Positions 208 to 11,122 of a DNA stretch of 11,134 bases are shown here, one piece after another. Both the position numbers and the translations under genes were made by a program. Position 1 is the first letter of the stretch. Every line of letters begins with the position of its first letter. The stretch lies in the NCBI GenBank assembly GCA_949289925.1, contig CASEPW010000078.1:1-11134 (forward strand), written 5' to 3'. The DNA comes from an uncultured Mycoplasmataceae bacterium. Its GTDB lineage: Bacteria; Bacillota_I; Bacilli_A; Mycoplasmatales; Mycoplasmoidaceae. The notes beneath the pieces were generated by a model, which made no database searches, was not told the origin of the DNA, and saw only the letters and a program-made list of their open reading frames with translations.

Positions 208-2121
208 TTAAGCTTTTTTAACTTTAGATTTTTTTGAAGTATTTTGTTTTTTACTTGGAACTAATTCGTGATTATTAGATTTTGAATTGTTTTTATTATT
301 TATTTTTGTTTTTACAACAATTTCTTTTTTTGTCGAATCAATGTTATTTTGTTCTTGAACATCATGATTAATTTTTTCAATTAAAAAATCATTTTTATCA
401 ACTCATTTAACTTCATATCCTATTTTTTTTAACTCTTCAGTACATTCGTTAACTTTAATAGTCATTCATATTAATAATTGATCCATTTCATCTTTTACAT
501 TAGATATTGGTAATTCTTTTTTGTGTTCAATTTCTTTTTTATTACTTAACAAGATTTTGTTAATTTTATTTAATTCTGCATCAATTAATTTAATTTTTTT
601 ATTTGCTAATTCTTCTATATGATTAACATTTTTTTGTTCATCAACAAAGTCATTAATATCTGTATTAGCAATTAATTCTTTAAATTCATTTGTATCTTTT
701 AATTTAATTGGAGCATCTGATTGTGGATGAATTTTACAAGTAGTAGTTTGTCCTACTTCAGAACTACTAGTTGATTTAATATCGTTTTTTGATATCGATA
801 AATTTGCTTCATTTTTCTCATCAGTAATTAAGCTTGATTTAACTTCATCTAAAGTTTTATCGTTATTTATATTTTCAATTTCTTTAATATCATCACCCAT
901 TTCAGCAATTAAATCAACTTTTTCACTATCAGGTAATAAATTATTTAATTTTTCTATTTCTTCATTAACAAGTGCAATTTTAACTTTTGTTTGTTTAGTT
1001 GTTAATTTCAATTCTTTATTAAGTTTTTCTAATTTTTTAATTAAATCTTTGTTAGATGGTAATGATATTTTTTCTTCCTCTAACTTGATATGTTTGTAGT
1101 ATTTTCTATGTATTTGTTTTGTAGGTTTTAATCTTACATCTGGATTATTATTAGTTGCAAATTCTAAACAAGCATCAACTTTTTGATTTAATTCTTTTCT
1201 AAGTTCTCTAACTTTATTTAAATCATTAATAATATCCAAATATTCATATGGATCAAAACCATATTTTTTATTGTTTTGATATGTTTTAGTAATAACTTCT
1301 TTCTTATCACATCACTCAATTAATTCAACCATTACTTTTCTTAATGGTGAAATTTCTTTTTGTTCAGGTCTATCAATTGCATTTTTAGCTCTCATTGTTG
1401 CTTGTTTTAATAATACTCATTCAAGTAATTTATCCATTTCAATTGAAACACCTTCAGGTGAACGAGGGTCAATTTCTTTTTCTGGAGTTCTATGTTGTTG
1501 AGATTGTTGATTACTCATGTCTTGAGTATTAATAGGTTTTTTAGTTTCTTCTTTATTATTATCTTTACCTAGGATATAATTGATTACTTCTTCAAATCCA
1601 TTTCTTCCAATTGCATATGCTAATGGCTCATAATTAGAAGTATTAAAAGAAATTTCATCCATTGCATTTTTATCATATTTAATATTCATTGAAACAATTT
1701 CATTTAATCAAATTGTTGTTTGTGAAATTTTTCATTCAGCTGATTTAACTTTTCACATATTATCATCTAAATTAAATTTAACAACATAGTTAATTGTGTT
1801 TCATTTTTTTGCAAATGCTAAAAAATCAAAATCTTTAACATTATTAAATAAATAAGAGTAATCCTTACTTGAACTTATATTATAATGAAATCTATCTATT
1901 AACATTTCAGCTGAAATTAATAAGTTTTTATATCAACTAGCATCGTATTGATCATATGATAATGGGAATGTTTTTTGTTTTTGTAAATTAAAAATAGTCT
2001 GAGATAAATAAATGTTGTTAAATAACATATTAGATTCATGGTAAAAATCATCTAATGCATTAATTAATAACATTGAATCTGATGGCACACTTATATTTAA
2101 TTTTTCTTCAATTTTACTCAT
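208..2121 (-). CDS. Soluble coiled-coil protein of unknown function (637 aa)
   Basis: I do not recognise the family. Read with UGA as Trp, one frame runs from ATG 2121-2119 to TAA 210-208; nine in-frame TGA codons (low bases 1933, 1801, 1753, 1732, 1708, 1417, 1312, 466, 403) are all tryptophan. There is no signal peptide or membrane helix, so it is probably cytoplasmic. Visible parts: residues 1-183, a compact-looking region with five Trp between 63 and 138; 185-221, a polar linker rich in Asn, Gln, Lys and Pro; 222-310, helical; about 350-405, Lys/Glu/Leu-rich and likely coiled coil; about 425-480, Ser/Thr/Asp-rich and probably disordered; about 495-585, a second helical block; 600-637, a Lys/Asn/Ser-rich basic tail. 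A motif EMDxLLxWxxxK occurs twice (residues 228-239 and 545-556). An AAGAG ribosome site lies seven bases before the ATG and supports the start. A structural or cytoskeletal role, or nucleic-acid binding by the tail, is conceivable but only inferred. Confidence 0.9.
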
Positions 2122-2160
2122 ATTTTCACTCTTGGGTATTTTTTACAATATATATTAATT
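2122..2160 (-). promoter_or_regulatory. Likely promoter and ribosome site of the 637-aa gene
   Basis: On the minus strand a TATATT box (bases 2152 to 2147) lies 25 bases before the ATG, followed by AAGAG (2133 to 2129), a partial Shine-Dalgarno, seven bases from the start codon. The terminator at 2165-2207 ends just upstream, so this gene needs its own promoter, which strengthens the call. No convincing -35 box is visible, and the assignment is by position and composition. Confidence 0.45.
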
Positions 2161-2164
2161 ATAC

Positions 2165-2207
2165 AAAAAAACAATTAAAAATGCACACCTTATTTCTAAA
2201 GTGTGCA
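2165..2207 (-). terminator. Strong rho-independent terminator, minus strand
   Basis: In minus-strand RNA the bases 2207-2198 (UGCACACUUU) pair with 2191-2182 (AAGGUGUGCA) in a 10-bp stem with one G-U pair and a six-base loop. A U-rich tract follows (five U, then seven U after a short break). On the plus strand the stem has a mismatch in place of the G-U pair and is not followed by a T run, so the minus orientation is favoured. It ends whatever is transcribed leftward from the 2.2-2.7 kb region: either the giant gene's mRNA or a separate small transcript. Confidence 0.83.
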
Positions 2208-2640
2208 CTAAATTGATCAATTTAAATGGTTGTTTTTTTGCAGCTCATGAAAGAGGAGTTATTACATATAAAGGGATAAAACGCAACCAATGGAAATAAA
2301 TCGATAAAATCGTAAATATTCGTTTAATCTTGTTTTATATCATCATGTTTCATTTTCTTCAAATTTATTTTTGATTATGTTCACAATATTAAAGACAACA
2401 AACAATTATCGTATTCATGGTGCAACAGCACAAAGTACCATCACAAAATATTTCAAACTATCCCTTGTATTCAATACTATTACTTATAATTTATTTCAAC
2501 TTGATTTTAAACACCTTTTAAAAGAATCAGTAATTTCAAAATATAGGTATTTGTTATATTCAAGCATCAATAGTAATAATCTTGAATTATCATAAAACAA
2601 TCAAACATATTACTTAACTATTCGAACGTTTTATATTTAA
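2208..2640. other. Unassigned intergenic stretch (possible decayed gene, 3' UTR or small RNA)
   Basis: About 430 bases without a credible gene. Six-frame reading with UGA as Trp gives only short open stretches: a plus-strand frame open from 2308 to 2595 with no ribosome site, and minus-strand pieces of 30-60 codons interrupted by TAA. An inverted pair TGGTTG (2227-2232) and CAACCA (2284-2289) encloses 51 bases. I find no tRNA, RNase P RNA, tmRNA or SRP RNA hallmarks. A strong minus-strand terminator at its left end suggests that the stretch is transcribed leftward. It could be a remnant of a mobile element or gene, but I cannot name one. Confidence 0.4.
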
Positions 2641-2666
2641 TGCAATGAAGTTTTTCAATCACTGCA
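2641..2666 (-). terminator. Weak hairpin downstream of the giant gene
   Basis: In minus-strand RNA the bases 2666-2659 (UGCAGUGA) pair with 2648-2641 (UCAUUGCA), an 8-bp stem with one G-U pair and a 10-base loop, followed by an A/U-rich stretch without a clean U run. It lies about 80 bases after the stop codon of the 2464-residue gene. It could be a weak terminator. A TATAAT on the same strand at 2678-2673 makes it equally possible that this is the 5' hairpin of a short transcript ending at 2165. Confidence 0.35.
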
Positions 2667-2743
2667 CTTATAATTATATATGTTTTTTTTGATGTTTTTT
2701 TCATCATTTTTTTTAAATAATTTATTATTTACTTTTTTCGAAA

Positions 2744-5700
2744 TTATATTTTTTTCTTAAAGATTTTTGGTAATTTAGCTATTAGTAATGCGATTAATAA
2801 ACAGATAGTAATAGTTACTACAATAATTAAGAAAAGTGCAACAATTTTCATTGGTGAAACTTCAGATGATAATGTTGTTTTTAAACCACTTAATTCTATA
2901 ATTATAGGTAAAGGAGTGGAAGAGAATGTACCATTAATATTATCTCAATAATTTGTTACAAATGCATTGAATACAATTTTACCTGAAAGATCATTAGCAG
3001 AATTTGGTTTATAAACTAAATTTTCAATTTTTATTGGATTATATCCTTGATCAACTAAACCATTTTGTTTTAAGATAGTTGGAGAATTTAATGCCATTGT
3101 TATGATTTTGATAAATGACTCTGGTGAAGATGAGATGTTTGAAGCATAAATACTTGAGAAATATTTATTATAAACTTCATCAAATTGATTTATATTAATG
3201 TTTATATAATTGTTATTGATTGAAAAATTTTCACCTGCTATTGTAGAAGATGTTGTAATTGATTTAAATCCAATTAATTTTAAGTTGAAAATTTTATTAT
3301 CATTAACTAACTTACCATTTTGATCATAATATTTATCAATTGAAATAGATGCATTTGCTGTTCCGTCTAAATTATTATAACTATCAATTGATAATAATTG
3401 AATGTTTGCATTTAATGGCAATGTACCATTAAATATTTCTTCTCTCTTCGATAAAATAATTTTATTTAATTCATTAAATGATTCAGCAACATAATCAGAA
3501 GCTAATTTATTAGAACATTCATCAGCAATAGAAATCATTTCGACTATAGAAGTAGAATGTGCTTTTAAAAATCCTCTAAATGTAATTTCTTCTGTTATGA
3601 ATGTTTGATTTTTTTCAACATTACCATGATTATTAAAATAATTAAAGAACGAGAATTTAGCTTTAACAATACCATTAATATTATCACGAGAGATAATTTG
3701 AATACCTTGAATATTTAATGTAGAGAAATCATCAGGTATTGAATTGAAAATGATATTTTTATTATATACAATTACCATTTTTAATTCTTCAAGATTTATT
3801 GTTTCAGCAAATAATGCATTTGAAGAAATAACTGGAGGGAATGAAAGATTAATATTTGTATTTACTTCTGTTGGGATTATTGACTTAAACCCTAATAATG
3901 TTAGTTTAAAATCAGATGAAGAACTTGTTTGTAACTCTCCTATTGTTGAATATCATTTATATAATGTTATATAAATGCATAATTTTCCTGTAAGATTATC
4001 AATATCAGAAATTTCAATATTAATATCATTAACCGAAAGATTCTCAGGTAAAGAATCAAAAATTGTTTCTCTATTTGATCATACATAATTTTTAATAGAT
4101 GTAATATCAGTTAATGATGAAGCTAAAATTTCAGAATAATTTGGAATAAAAATATCAAATATTTTTTGTGTTGTTTGAGAAACATTTTTAAATCCTGAAA
4201 TTGTTAAATTAAAAGATATTTTTTTAGTTGGATCATTTATTAATATAGAATTACTATTATAATATTTTGATAAATAAATTTTTAAAATTAAATGCCCTTT
4301 TATATTATCAAAATTAATATCAGCTAATGTAATATCATTAATAGTAACATTGTTAGGAATATCTTTAAAAATTTCACTAACATTTTGGAAAATAATTTCT
4401 TTTATTTTATTTGTATTCTTAGCAATATCTTGAGCTAAAATTTCATGATACCCAGGCAAGAAAAAAGTTGAGTTAATTAATTCTGTTTTCTTACTATTTT
4501 TAGAAAAACCATAAATAAAGTGGGTTTTTGTTATACTTGTTCCTAAAATTAAGTATCCATTTTCATCATAATAATTAGTATAATTAATAGAAACTTCAAG
4601 CATACCCTCAGAATTGTTAATGCTATCTATACTTTTAAAATTAATATTAGAGATTGAGAAATTAGGTCCTGGATTTTGAATGAATTTATTTTTATTTTTG
4701 TAAATTAATTGAATTATTTCTTGTGGAGATAATGAATATGCTGAAATATGAGATATTGAACCTAATCTAACTGTTTCAATAAAAATAGTAGGGGTAACTG
4801 GCATGAATCCTGTTAGTGTTAAATAAAATTTCTTATTTTCATTAACAATGTCTGCTTTTTCATTAAAATATAAGTTTAATGTTACTTCAACATTCATTTT
4901 TGCTGTTTTGTTATCAATGCTGATAATTTTTACATTAATAATATTATTTTTTGTAAATGTAGTTGGTAATGGTGAAAAGATTTGATTATAGAATAAACTA
5001 ATCAATTCAAAAATTTCATCGGTATTATATTCACTAGCTGTTGCCATTGAAGAAGTTCCAATATTAAATTCACTAACTGCTTGTGTTTTTCCAATTTCTT
5101 TAAAACCTGTAAAATTTATTTCACTAGTTAAAGTGTTTATAGTATCTACTAAACCATTATCTGATCTATAATAATTAGTAATACTAACATTAGCATTTAT
5201 TGATCCTCTTTTATTATCAACATTTTTAATTTCAACATTTCTAATATCATTAATTTTGAAATCACTAGGTAATGAAGGGATGATAGAATCTAGATTAAAG
5301 AAAATTTGTTGTTTTAATTGTAATGATGTATATTCACTAGCAATAATATTTGAAACATTTTTGATTTTAAAACTACTTTTTATAATTGTAGGTTGTGTAT
5401 TACCAAATCCTGAAAAAGTTATTGTGTGCTTTAATGGGTTATCAGTTCCTGCAATATTACCTTCCTCATCATAATATGATGTAATAGAAATCGAAATAGA
5501 TAATCTACCATCTGAATCATTTGGCATTAATGAATTAATAATAATATTTTGTTCATTAAAATTGTCAGGTAATGAGTTAAATATATCATTTTTATTTCTC
5601 ATTATTATACTAATTGCTTCTGCATTATCAACATCAGAAGGTTTTATATTTGAAACATCTAATAAAACTAAATCTGATTTAATTTCTGTTGAAACAATAC

Positions 5701-8700
5701 TTCTAAATCCGTTAATAGTAACATTTCACTCATAAATTTTTGATGTTTGTAATATACCATTATCATCGATATAATTAGTAATACCAACTTTTAAATACAT
5801 AATACCATTTAAATTATCACATTCTTCGACCTCAACTATTCTAATATTAGATGGATTAAAATTACTAGGTAACCCTGAAGTTATTGAAGAAATGTTTTCA
5901 TATATAAAATTACGTAATTCTTGGTTTAAAATAGATGAAGCTAATCTTGTTGAGAAAGGAGAATTAGGTAAAATGTTTATTTCATTTGAAAAAGAAGTTG
6001 CTTTATTAGAAGAAAAATTTTGAATAACTAATCTATCTATTGTTAACGGTTTAATTAATTCTACATTACCTTTTGTATCATAATAATTAATTATCTTTAA
6101 TGATACAGCAATTGATCCTCTTAAATTATCAAAACCTAAAATCTCTAATGATTGGATATCTCTTGCAGAAAAATTAGGAGTTGGATTAACTAAAAATAAT
6201 GGCAATATACTTTTTTCAGTCAAAATAGATGTTATTACAGGTGTTGTTAATTCATTAGGTAATAATTGACTTTTTTCAGGTAAAGTTATTCTTGTATAAA
6301 CTCTAGTTGGATATACTATCTTAAATCCTTCTAATAAAATATTTCCCACTGTTTTTGGTGATGTAATTAAATCTCCTTTGGCATCATAATAATTTGTAAA
6401 TGTTATTTCAATTTCTAATAAACCTTCTAAGTTTAATTGATTATTTGTTATATTAACATTTTGGATTAATACACCTGTATCTGGTTGAGAATCAAAAATA
6501 ATATCCTTATTTTGATTAACAATATCTATAACTTGTTGTTTTTGTAATGTCGATGCTACAACATCTTCATACCTTTGAAGTAAAACATTTTTTTGAACTG
6601 TTGTTTCAGTTATTTGTCTAAAACCTGTTAATAGTAATTTACCACATAATGGTCTAGAAGGATTGGTTTCTTGAATACCTTCACTATTAAAATAATTAGT
6701 AATTTCATATTCAATGGTGATTTCACCAGTTAAATTATTTGGATTTGGTGAAATTGCATTGTCTAATCTAACTATGACATCATCAAGAACATTGAAATTA
6801 GATGGAAAATTTAAAAATATTTGTTTAGTATATTTTTTTAAAATGAATTTTATATCTGTTTCACTTGAAGAATTAGAAGCTAAAATAGTACTATAATTTG
6901 GAACTAAAAATTCATTAATTACAGAAGATGATACTAATTTTTGAAACCCTTTAATAGTAATATCAATTGGTGGTTTATTTCATTGAGTTTGTAAAATACC
7001 ATTTTCATCATAATATCTTTTCAATTTTACATAAACATGTAAAGTTCCTGATTCATTATTATATACAACCTTGTCTGTTGGCTCACCAATTGAATTACAT
7101 ATTATAATATCTTCCATTGGATTTCATTGTTCTGGTTTTGAACCTTGAATCTTAGAATTAATTATTGTTATTAAATCAATTTTATTATTTGCAACTTGAG
7201 AAGCAATATACCCGTTACCAGCTGTTTTAAAATCATCAGGAGATAATATTGTTTCAGTAGTTTTTTTGAAACCTATAAAGGTAAAAGTTCCAAAATCCTT
7301 AAATGTAGTATGTAACTGGCCACTTGCATCATTTCAATAATTCAAACCTAAATTTACCACTAATTCTCCATTAACATTATCAGGAACATAATGTCTTACA
7401 CCATCTGGATAAGTAAATAATATATTATCATCACTAAAGTTTCTAGGTTCACCACGAATAACTGCATGAAGTTTTGACTTTAATAATTTTTCTAAAACAT
7501 CTGTTGGAGAAATTTCAGGTAATGAAACATTTAATATATTTGTATTTATAACTGTTTCATAATTTATCAAAAAATTAACTAATTTAATTTCAAATGGAAA
7601 TGGTTCAGCACCATCTGCAACATTTCTATATTGATTATTTTCATCAAAATATATATCTACAGTACCTGACAATCTAATTTCACCAAATTTATTGTCTCTA
7701 ACTATTTCATTAAAAGTAAAATTAGATTCAGATAATATATTCTTAAATACATTATTTTTTAGCGTTTCAATAATTTGATCATCAGTAAATGAGCTTGTAC
7801 TAATTTCTGATCAATCTTTTGAACCGTATTCAGGCAAATATGAAGTTGGTCCTGGTGATTTTTTAAAGTTCACTATTCTAATTGGTAGTGGGATAAAATT
7901 ATCAGCAGAAGTTTGAAGAGTTAATGAATCATCATAAAATCTAGAAAGTTTTGCATTGAATCTAACCTCACCTCCTGTTGGATCAACAACAAAATTGTCA
8001 ATTATAACATTATCAATTGAAAAATTTTTTGGTGGATTAACAACATTTTCAAAAACTAATTGCTTAGCATCATTTTGACTATATTGTGAAGGATAAATAG
8101 TTCTATTATTATCTAATAAATCATTCGGGATTTCAATTTTAGTTGGGAAAATTTCTTCAAAACCTACAAATGAAATATCACCAAAATTATAAAAATTATT
8201 GCCATCATCTGTATTTGGAACAATAATTAAGAAATCATCTTTTACCTCATTATATTCAAAATATTTATCTAATAAAACAGGAATTGTAATTTTAGGTGGG
8301 TGATTTTCAATTTTTTTCTTATTTAAATCTACACTTGTTTTTCCTCTTTTTGGCAAATTTACTATTGCGTTTGATGAAACAATTTTATTTACTATATTTT
8401 CTTGCAAATCTGGTGTTGATAATCATTCATAGATTGGCACACTTGAATCAATATTTATTTCATTAATAGCAATTTCTGTTGCTGCTGTTACTTTTTCAAA
8501 ACCTGAAATAGTAATTTGGCCAAAATTAGTTTTTTGTTTTACAATTTTTGAATTTCTAAAGAAATTAGATAAATATAAGTCGAATGTTATTAAACCATCT
8601 TTATTTGAATAATTAATGTTTTCTATAAAAATATCATCAATACCAAATTCAGATGTAACATTACCAAAAATTATTTTTCTTTTAATTAAATATTTTAATT

Positions 8701-10138
8701 CATTTAAATATCTATTTTCTGTTGCAATTTGGGCATATATTGCATCATTGTATAAAAATTCATCACTAGTTATTGATATACTATTTACAACTCTAGTATC
8801 TTCAATAGTTTTTCAATTTCCTTGAACAACTTCAGGAACAAGTGAGGCGTTATTATTGAATGAAAAATATTTACCATCATTGTAATTTGTATAATTATTA
8901 ACATCAACTCCAACCCCAGGTATAAATTGATATGTTATTGTTCCTCTATCATCATCTCCAATTAATTTTAACTTTGCACCATAAAATGTAGATGGGATAG
9001 CATTTTCAGCAAAAATTGAAAAATTTGAATTATTAAAATAATTTCTAGAATTTTTTATTTCTTTAATTTTTTCAGATGGTAACATATCACTATTAGATGA
9101 AGTTTTAACTTGAAAATTAAAAACTCTAGTAGATGCTGTTGGTACATATTGACCAAATAATCTAGTTCTTTCTTTTGTTAATGATGAACTAGGTATAGCA
9201 TCTATTATTCCTGAAAAATATGAAACATGTTCAATAGGATCAAAATACATCCCATAATCTAATGCTCTTGGGTTTAATTGAGAATTTGATGTTCCTGATA
9301 AAATATTATCTTGATTTGAATTACCAACAATATTTGCCTTAATGTATGGATTATAATTATAACTAGATTCATTAGATGTATTTGGAACTATGTTTGAAGT
9401 TTTAATAGAATAATTAATCAATACTGGTGAGGGATTTTCTAAATAAATTCTATCAGGAAAATCAGCATTAGGTTTTTTTACCATCATATAATAAAAAAGA
9501 GGCCCATTTACATCTGCTGGTTTAGATAATGCATCTTCTAAAAATGGAGGAGCAGTAATATATGTTTTTCTTAATTCAATCTTATTATTTGAATTTATTA
9601 AATCGTTATATATGTATTCATTTGAATTGTCTTGAGATTTATTAGGTAAGGCATTTTTTTGTTGAATAAATAATGAATTTAAACCATCATTAATATTATT
9701 AGAAAAATTTGGAGTATTACCTCAAAGCGAAAATAATATATTAAGTAAAATGGAGTTTTGATTACCATTAGAAATCATCGAAAATGATGATCCTATTGCA
9801 TTTTCACCAATTGAACCATTTAGTGCTCAATTAATATTTTTATTTTCATCAATTTTGATATTTCCTACAGTACCTTCTGAATTATATGGAACCAAATTAG
9901 ACCTAGCTAATTGAAATTCATTTTTAAAGTCGCTGATATCAGCACCTAAATTTGAAATTTCTATTTCTTCTACAGAAGACAAATCAGAAGGTTTTACATC
10001 TCTACTATTTTTTGCTAAAAAAACTTCATTACTTGATAATGATGATAACAAATAAGACGATGTAATAAAAACAACAACAAATAATGTTGTTGATGCTAGA
10101 AACATTTTTATGAATGATGATTTATTAATTTTTTTCAT
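2744..10138 (-). CDS. Giant repeat-containing surface protein, Lipoprotein_17 (PF04200)-like domains (2464 aa)
   Basis: With UGA as Trp a single frame runs from ATG 10138-10136 to TAA 2746-2744; I read every junction and found no TAA or TAG. Twelve TGA codons are Trp. Layout: residues 12-33 form a hydrophobic N-terminal segment after a Lys-rich start (signal or anchor); there is no cysteine nearby, so it is not a classical lipoprotein. Residues about 40-455 are a unique region rich in Asn and Ser. Residues about 459-2428 hold about 19 tandem domains of roughly 100 residues. Residues 2430-2454 are a membrane helix, and 2455-2464 a Lys-rich tail that should stay inside. The bulk should therefore be displayed outside the cell. 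The domains resemble the lipoprotein-associated domain of mycoplasma variable surface proteins (LPxxF... DNxxGxLxVxI... YYDxNG... GFK). Function is inferred: adhesion, surface coat or host interaction. Only six cysteines occur. The ATG has no Shine-Dalgarno, and a TATAAT box ends seven bases before it, so the mRNA may be nearly leaderless. Confidence 0.93.
2853..8764 (-). repeat. Tandem array of about 19 surface domains (~100 residues each) in the giant protein
   Basis: The units are aligned on a Gly-Phe (or Asn-Phe) landmark near their end. The Phe falls at residues 547, 660, 758, 856, 957, 1065, 1173, 1272, 1375, 1478, 1578, 1679, 1778, 1878, 1983, 2084, 2190, 2291, with Gly-Leu at 2418-2419. 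Most spacings are 98-108 residues. Each unit runs: a helix often beginning with LAS or ASE; IxxSLPxxF; DI followed by a strand; DNxxGxL and alternating hydrophobics; YYDxNGxL; a variable loop; a strand with GFKxIxxTE. Units 10-18 are the most regular. Units 2-6 are degenerate (NF for GF, insertions, loss of the LPxxF motif), and the last unit carries about 25 extra residues. The units differ clearly at protein and DNA level, so this is a diverged array and not a recent expansion. The Lipoprotein_17 match is made by eye from the motif pattern. Confidence 0.85.
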
Positions 10139-10189
10139 TTTTTATATTATATTATATAATATATAAAATTTTAAAAAAATGAGGTATAT
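10139..10189. promoter_or_regulatory. Divergent promoter region between the giant gene and trxB
   Basis: These 51 bases are the only DNA between two divergent genes. Plus strand: TATAAT at 10155-10160, then GAGG at 10181-10184 as ribosome site five bases before the trxB ATG. Minus strand: two overlapping TATAAT boxes (10156-10151 and 10151-10146) directly before the giant gene's ATG, with no Shine-Dalgarno. The -10 elements of both genes overlap, so polymerase binding for one could exclude the other. The TA-rich composition lowers the weight of any single box, but the trxB ribosome site is clear. Confidence 0.6.
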
Positions 10190-11122
10190 ATGGACAAAAA
10201 AAATGTTGCAATTATTGGAGCAGGACCCGCAGGTTTAACTGCTGCAATTTATTTACAAAGAGCAAATATAAATGCTATTTTTTTTGATGGAGATGCACCA
10301 GGGGGCAAAATGGTAAAAACTGCTCACGTTGAGAATTATCCAGGTTTTAAAAAAATAAATGGTGCAGATTTAGCGTATTCGATGTTTGAACAAGCTGTTT
10401 CATTAGGTGCAAAATATGAAGGAACATTTGTTAGTAAAATAAAACAAAATGGTAATAAATTTATTATTTTTACAAAAAATAATAAAAAATTTGAGGTAGA
10501 TGCTGTATTTATCTCTAATGGAACAGAAAATAGAAAATTAAATATCCCAGGTGAAATTGAATTCTTTAACAAAGGAGTTAGTTATTGTGCAATTTGCGAT
10601 AGTAGTTTTTTTAAAAATGAAGATATTGCTGTTGTTGGATCAGGAAATTCTGCTGCAGAAGAAAGTGTGTTTTTAAGTAATATAGGGAAAAACATTCATT
10701 TATTTGTTAGAAGTGAAAATTTAAAATGTGATGAAACTATTAAAGATGAATTATTAAAACTTGAAAATGTACATATTCATTATAATAGTAGAATAAAACA
10801 AATTTTAGGAAATAATGCTGTTGATGAAATTTTAGTTGTAAATGATAAAGAAAATAAAGAATACAAAATGGCAATTAAAGCAGTCTTTCCATTTATTGGT
10901 TTAGATCCAATTAGCATTGAATTAGAAGCTAATAAAGAAATTGCTAAAAATGACAAAGGATTTATTGTTGTAGATAAAAATATGAGAACTAATATCCCTG
11001 GAGTTTATGCTATTGGAGATATCATTGAAAAGAAATATAGACAAATTTCTACTGCAATTTCAGATGGTACTATTGCAGCTTTAAATTGTGTTGAATTTTT
11101 AAAAAATAATAATTGAAAATAA
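10190..11122 (+). CDS. trxB: Thioredoxin reductase (FAD-dependent), 310 aa
   Basis: This flavoenzyme passes electrons from NADPH through FAD and a redox disulphide to thioredoxin in the cytoplasm, the main thiol-reducing route in mollicutes. Seen: the FAD motif GAGPAG at residues 10-15; VENYPGF at 47-53; active-site CAIC with Cys133 and Cys136, followed by Asp137; the nucleotide-binding GSGNSA at 150-155; and the C-terminal FAD motif with GD at 276-277. The length is close to the family's usual 310-320. The start is fixed by GAGG five bases upstream and by the N-terminal FAD strand. The apparent stop TGA at 11114 is Trp309; Lys310 and TAA at 11120-11122 follow. Odd point: the HRRxxxR motif that binds the NADPH 2'-phosphate in the E. 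coli and Bacillus enzymes reads VRSENLK here (173-179), which keeps one Arg and a Lys. A related ferredoxin- or NADH-using reductase is the alternative. Confidence 0.92.

Follow-up and report, generated by a model that had tools for sequence, protein, structure and literature searches.

A giant tandem-repeat protein of an uncultured Mycoplasmataceae bacterium and distant relatives that share the number and order of its repeats

The window analyzed here, a stretch of 11,134 nucleotides that constitutes contig C78 of the genome of an uncultured Mycoplasmataceae bacterium (G000; 648,284 bases, 108 contigs, 74% complete), carries the gene of a giant protein, P0001, with divergent repeats whose number and order stay the same even in proteins that share only a third of their residues. 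P0001 is probably a fixed-length surface stalk or adhesin, presumably a long one, that reaches out from a wall-less bacterium. What is worth keeping is the set of giant proteins with a kept repeat order, which is of more interest than the UGA codons within the gene. The features of the window and of related loci are listed in Table 1.

TABLE 1 Features of the giant gene, its surroundings, and related loci
Feature	Position	Strand	Remark
Giant ORF (P0001)	2744..10138	-	2464 aa, NCBI code 4; ATG at 10138, stop TAA at 2746-2744, 2464 codons (table 4 translation)
UGA=Trp codons (low bases)	9827, 9722, 8813, 8423, 7811, 7334, 7124, 6980, 5726, 4079, 3953, 2945	-	
N-terminal hydrophobic segment, residues 8-26	10061..10117	-	hydropathy; signal peptide or signal anchor
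N-terminal unique region, residues ~51-447	8798..9988	-	no Pfam family
Array of 19 tandem repeats, residues 448-2425	2864..8797	-	predicted divergent relatives of Lipoprotein_17 (PF04200)
Repeat 11	5387..5686	-	sole repeat above PF04200 cut-off
C-terminal TM segment, residues 2435-2453	2780..2836	-	hydropathy
Basic C-terminal tail, residues 2454-2464	2747..2779	-	short
trxB	10190-11122	+	divergent from giant gene
Gap between giant gene and trxB	10139-10189		51 bases
Region between giant and downstream genes	2122-2743		~620 bases
Terminator-like stem	2209-2180		between two minus-strand genes
Downstream gene	208-2121	-	637 residues, 9 UGA=Trp codons
Three giants head to tail, one strand	L052 (G000:C44) 1-14983	-	gaps of 27 and 37 bases
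C44c	L052 1-3363		contig end
C89	L056 2-2563		contig end
Repeat protein of congener G004	L060 1594-12189	+	3532-residue frame

The repeats and their relation to Lipoprotein_17

With the repeat profile, the array of P0001 was divided into 19 repeats of ~104 residues each, which share a mean pairwise identity of 28% (maximum, 41%) and follow a consensus of roughly I.AS, I...IF..P.NF...NI, DN..G, and YYD..G.L, with GF near the end. The first-pass annotation had suggested PF04200 for this array. This was a good guess that held for part of the material: measured against the gathering cut-off of 22.4 bits, repeat 11 passed with 26.2 bits, but P0001 as a whole reached only 17.5 bits. Repeat 16 scored 22.0 bits and five more repeats between 17.1 and 20.5 bits, so that 9 of the 19 repeats scanned singly matched at an E value of 0.1 and 7, one of them above the cut-off, at an E value of 0.01, the remaining 12 giving no match at the latter threshold. 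Two orthologues described below also passed (P0005, 59.9 bits; P0006, 49.6 bits), whereas a third failed (P0004, 19.1 bits). Judged by these scores, the repeats are in all likelihood divergent relatives of Lipoprotein_17.

Very few papers on the PF04200 domain were found in the literature. The domain is named for a single protein of M. gallisepticum in PMC2865477. No paper describing such giants by title or abstract was found in a search outside of which most subscription journals lay. A sequence search of the PDB with P0001 gave no match. The repeat profile gave six matches there, to LRR kinases of plants and to two further proteins, with no mycoplasma protein named among them; all had E values of 0.023 or worse and were judged to be due to chance. 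Of the double-repeat alignments, A6, built from non-overlapping pairs, looked in register, and A2 and A5 were dropped since overlapping windows gave misalignment or a shift.

Kept number and order of the repeats

A protein database of 5.8 billion entries was searched with P0001 by scoring the 7995 candidates that shared most words with it, a procedure by which relatives may be missed. Of the candidates scored, P0004 has 2454 residues and is 51% identical to P0001 over 100% of the length; P0005 is 37% identical over 97% and P0006 33% over 88%, and more distant giants were matched as well. A search with P0006 added P0011 (29% identity over 88% of P0006); for this search and another one, the ~8000 best word-sharing candidates were likewise scored. 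P0004, P0005, P0006, and P0011 resemble P0001 in being long, in having the same repeats in the same order, and in ending similarly, the transmembrane end and tail of the four orthologues following a common pattern (IAK, L or A, P, basic residues). P0004 to P0006 differ from P0001 not only in overall sequence but most of all in their first 50 residues and in the unique region.

With a second profile, 19 repeats were counted in each of the five proteins. As this profile was built from P0001, P0004, P0005, and P0006, the count for P0011 is the sole independent one, and in P0004 and P0005 the number leans on a weak repeat 2 (3.7 and 8.1 bits). In P0006 the first profile had given 20 matches, one of them at 0.0 bits, versus 19 with the second. 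When the repeats of the five proteins were compared, 164 reciprocal-best pairs out of 190 possible ones lay on the diagonal and 1 lay off it. Extended to six groups of giants (see below), the comparison placed 283 of 284 within-group reciprocal-best pairs on one diagonal. Between groups, as a control, 178 of 583 such pairs fell on the best diagonal, a figure biased upwards because the best diagonal is a maximum, and no kept order was found between the repeats of P0001 and those of P0007 to P0010. By itself, a kept order is no proof of selection for length, because ancient, divergent repeats recombine little. The equal repeat number in five proteins, as read from their sequences, suggests such selection.

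At an E value of 1e-3, the repeat profile matched 18 of the 95 genomes of the family; at 1e-5, it matched 23 of the 320 genomes of the order, namely, 11 of the same family (genera g1, g3, and g11) and 12 of another one (f7); in both scans, matches per genome were recorded up to a maximum. Within the window's own genus, G002 and G003 gave no repeat match, out of six genomes. The whole protein matched 8 of the 320 genomes at an E value of 1e-10, with no full-length orthologue among the matches listed.

Further giants in the same genome

Five further giants were found in G000, named C44a, C44b, C44c+C89, C3, and C49, each of which is in register with a different database partner or partners. All 18 reciprocal pairs of C44a and P0009 agree (20 and 21 repeats, P0009 having 20 or 21 depending on the profile), as do all 19 of C3 and P0010 (for C3, the count was 18 or 19 according to the profile and cut-off used), all 16 of C49 and P0012, where C49 is cut by a contig end, and all 13 of C44b and P0013, which is likewise a cut pair. 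C44c (10/10 pairs) and C89 (8/8) match repeats 1 to 10 and 11 to 18, respectively, of P0007/P0008 and, by sequence, look like the two ends of one gene split across contigs. The C-terminal tails are alike within each group and different between groups. Together, the six groups account in G000 for 12,173 residues, or 36.5 kb, corresponding to ~5.6% of the assembled bases.

The surface repeats of mycoplasmas are chiefly known as size-variable arrays. It is conceivable, though we hold it to be rather doubtful, that the giants represent a fixed kit of at least six tail-anchored stalk proteins in which domain number and order are frozen across distant relatives, yielding rods of defined lengths; such rods would perhaps act next to one another as a single coat or attachment organelle. 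Against this idea, the groups other than that of P0001 have two or three independent members, some of them truncated at contig ends, and neither the repeat proteins of the congener G004 (3/3) nor those of G025 (2/2) belong to any of the groups. Three proteins of G000 itself (C86, C48, and C107) also lie outside all groups, as do five contigs of family f7 that carry related repeats (genus g41, L066 to L070). The group assignment covered neither C26 nor a congener protein in L033. In congener G004, a 3532-residue frame with repeats of the same family was observed that fits no group.

Membrane ends and probable function

P0001 has an N-terminal hydrophobic segment and a C-terminal transmembrane segment, the latter strongly hydrophobic and followed by a basic tail, a plan found in 8 of 8 giants examined. 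The previous description of P0001 as a giant tandem-domain surface protein is well supported as regards tandem domains and membrane anchoring; its surface location is deduced from these two segments. A lipobox cysteine after the signal, the hallmark of a mycoplasma lipoprotein, is absent, the first cysteine being residue 1014.

For the stalk or adhesin considered probable above, hydropathy suggests that the N-terminal segment carries the protein through the membrane, in which the C-terminal helix and the basic tail would then hold it. The 19 repeats would make up a long, thin extracellular stalk by which the unique N-terminal region is held at a distance from the membrane; its length would be ~70 to 80 nm if every repeat were a compact ~4-nm domain. 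Binding to the host surface, mucus, or neighboring cells may be the task of the N-terminal region or of certain repeats, which is the weakest step of this proposal. Since repeat number and order are kept in the relatives, the length of the stalk seems to be held constant and not to vary; that this reflects a need for a given length is our interpretation. The genome encodes at least six such giants, P0001 included. If true, stalk length would be a selected trait, each repeat position would have a role, and the PF04200 domain would gain a testable job.

A screen for fibrillar adhesins lists PF04200 among the stalk domains (PMC9210967). Like the PF04200-containing fibrillar-adhesin-like proteins of that source, P0001 has repeats that match PF04200 (one above the cut-off) in a tandem array and a C-terminal membrane anchor; it differs from them in that the whole protein stays below the cut-off and in having no lipobox, no known adhesive domain, and 19 repeats in kept order. 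Of the hallmarks of this class, tandem stalk domains are present (19 repeats), as is a cell-surface anchor at one end, which was recognized by hydropathy only; an adhesive domain was not recognized by Pfam in residues 1 to 447. The predicted plan of a unique N-terminal region, a long array, and a C-terminal anchor thus fits the fibrillar-adhesin class except for the adhesive domain.

An unlikely alternative is that neither hydrophobic end leaves the membrane; P0001 would then form a giant loop, or several such proteins a surface coat or shield, without a free tip. The presence of both segments in 8/8 giants speaks for this arrangement, and at least six giants making up such a share of the assembled bases would suit a coat. 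Moreover, the signal peptidase I families Peptidase_S26 and Peptidase_S24 were not matched in any of 12 genomes, including G000, versus matches in 12 and 10, respectively, of 14 control genomes, and the N-terminal segment may therefore remain in the membrane. However, mycoplasmas without a recognizable signal peptidase I still cleave some signals; our literature search on this enzyme in mycoplasmas gave nothing useful. The N terminus of P0005, by reading of its sequence, looks like a classical cleavable signal (SATAAVASYK), and conservation is lowest in the first 50 residues of the protein, with 11 to 26% identity to P0001 in the three orthologues measured, which also argues against a loop.

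It is less likely still that P0001 serves not for attachment but as a scaffold on which nutrients or macromolecules are captured or enzymes displayed. As residues 1 to 447 contain no recognized domain (best Pfam score, 13.2 bits, versus a cut-off of 27), any target would be possible. On the other hand, no enzymatic or carbohydrate-binding family was found in P0001 at the Pfam cut-off, and the one paper cited above counts the family of the repeat among adhesin stalk domains.

We regard it as quite improbable that P0001 acts as a leg in a gliding machine, as Gli349 does in Mycoplasma mobile. Gli349 is described as membrane-anchored with 18 repeats of ~100 residues, its transmembrane segment lying at the N terminus and an oval foot at the C terminus (PMC7052211). 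Both are giant membrane-anchored mycoplasma proteins, and size, repeat length, and repeat number (18 versus 19) are of the same order; in addition, three giants lie head to tail on C44, and the giant gli genes likewise adjoin. In this comparison, made by description only, P0001 differs from Gli349 in being anchored at the opposite end and in the lack of extra F1-like genes. G000 contains two PF00006 matches, as do G004 and G005, which is as many as an ordinary F1 alpha/beta pair would give and hence no sign of an F1-like internal motor; a paralogous F1-like ATPase of a gliding motor was not found in G000, an objection that is weakened by the genome being 74% complete.

Reading of UGA in the frame

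The gene of the probable stalk protein is read with UGA as tryptophan. Its 2464-codon frame contains 12 TGA codons, no TGG, no TAG, and TAA solely as the stop. From base composition, 185 TAA or TAG codons would be expected (probability of none, 4e-84), and the longest run free of them in 200 first-order Markov windows comprised 260 codons (mean, 126). The GC content is 9% at third codon positions and 32% and 31% at the first two, as expected of a coding frame in AT-rich DNA. These results bear out the single frame without internal TAA or TAG that had been proposed, and all 12 UGA positions named with it agree with the residue list of the translation. Under table 11, the frame breaks at these 12 places into 13 pieces of 103, 34, 302, 129, 203, 158, 69, 47, 417, 548, 41, 335, and 66 residues, of which 8 have at least 100 residues, in line with the "seven or more" fragments of the first-pass annotation.

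At the 12 UGA sites, tryptophan is found 12 times in P0004, 10 times in P0005, and 5 times in P0006, and tryptophan, phenylalanine, or tyrosine 12, 12, and 9 times, compared to 3, 9, and 16 tryptophans, respectively, at the 2452 other positions; the relatives' sequences were used as predicted in the database, whatever the code applied there. A tRNA-Trp with the anticodon UCA is encoded on contig L033 (CASEIK010000023.1) of a congener (G005, of the window's genus). The tRNA evidence rests on this congener because no tRNA-Trp is among the four tRNAs found in the 74% complete genome G000, a number that is low even for an incomplete genome. Among the matches listed, TGA is the only in-frame stop within the genome itself.

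The gene is thus predicted to yield one protein of 2464 residues. The opposing view, by which the standard code applies and the frame represents several short proteins or a gene in decay, has only its breakage at 12 places under table 11 in its favor; it is already refuted, and its probability negligible, by the anticodon of the congener's tRNA-Trp, the restriction of in-frame stops to TGA among the listed matches, the tryptophans kept in relatives, and the existence of full-length relatives. It had further been claimed that annotation with the standard bacterial code would miss the gene or list it in fragments. The frame does break under table 11, but the claim was overstated: full-length relatives are already present in the protein database, and since UGA is normally read as tryptophan in this lineage and throughout the order, the "hidden gene" is an annotation matter and the UGA reading itself is textbook.

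Neighboring genes

Upstream of the giant gene lies trxB, identified by a TRX_reduct score of 338.9 bits, just below the cut-off of 343.45. In the gap between the two genes, a TATAAT motif ends 7 bases before the ATG of P0001, which would suit a leaderless transcript; promoter-like matches in the window showed no excess (89, versus 107 in shuffles). The 637-residue protein encoded downstream was matched in all 6 genomes of the genus and in none of 33 others searched, and gave no Pfam match at an E value of 1. No host or habitat is proposed here, since nothing ties the marine-bivalve microbiota treated in one paper (PMC10497454) to this genome. No RNA family of Rfam matched the window, including the region between the giant and the downstream gene. 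A terminator-like stem was observed in this region; terminator-like sites number 3 in the window, versus 1.6 in shuffles.
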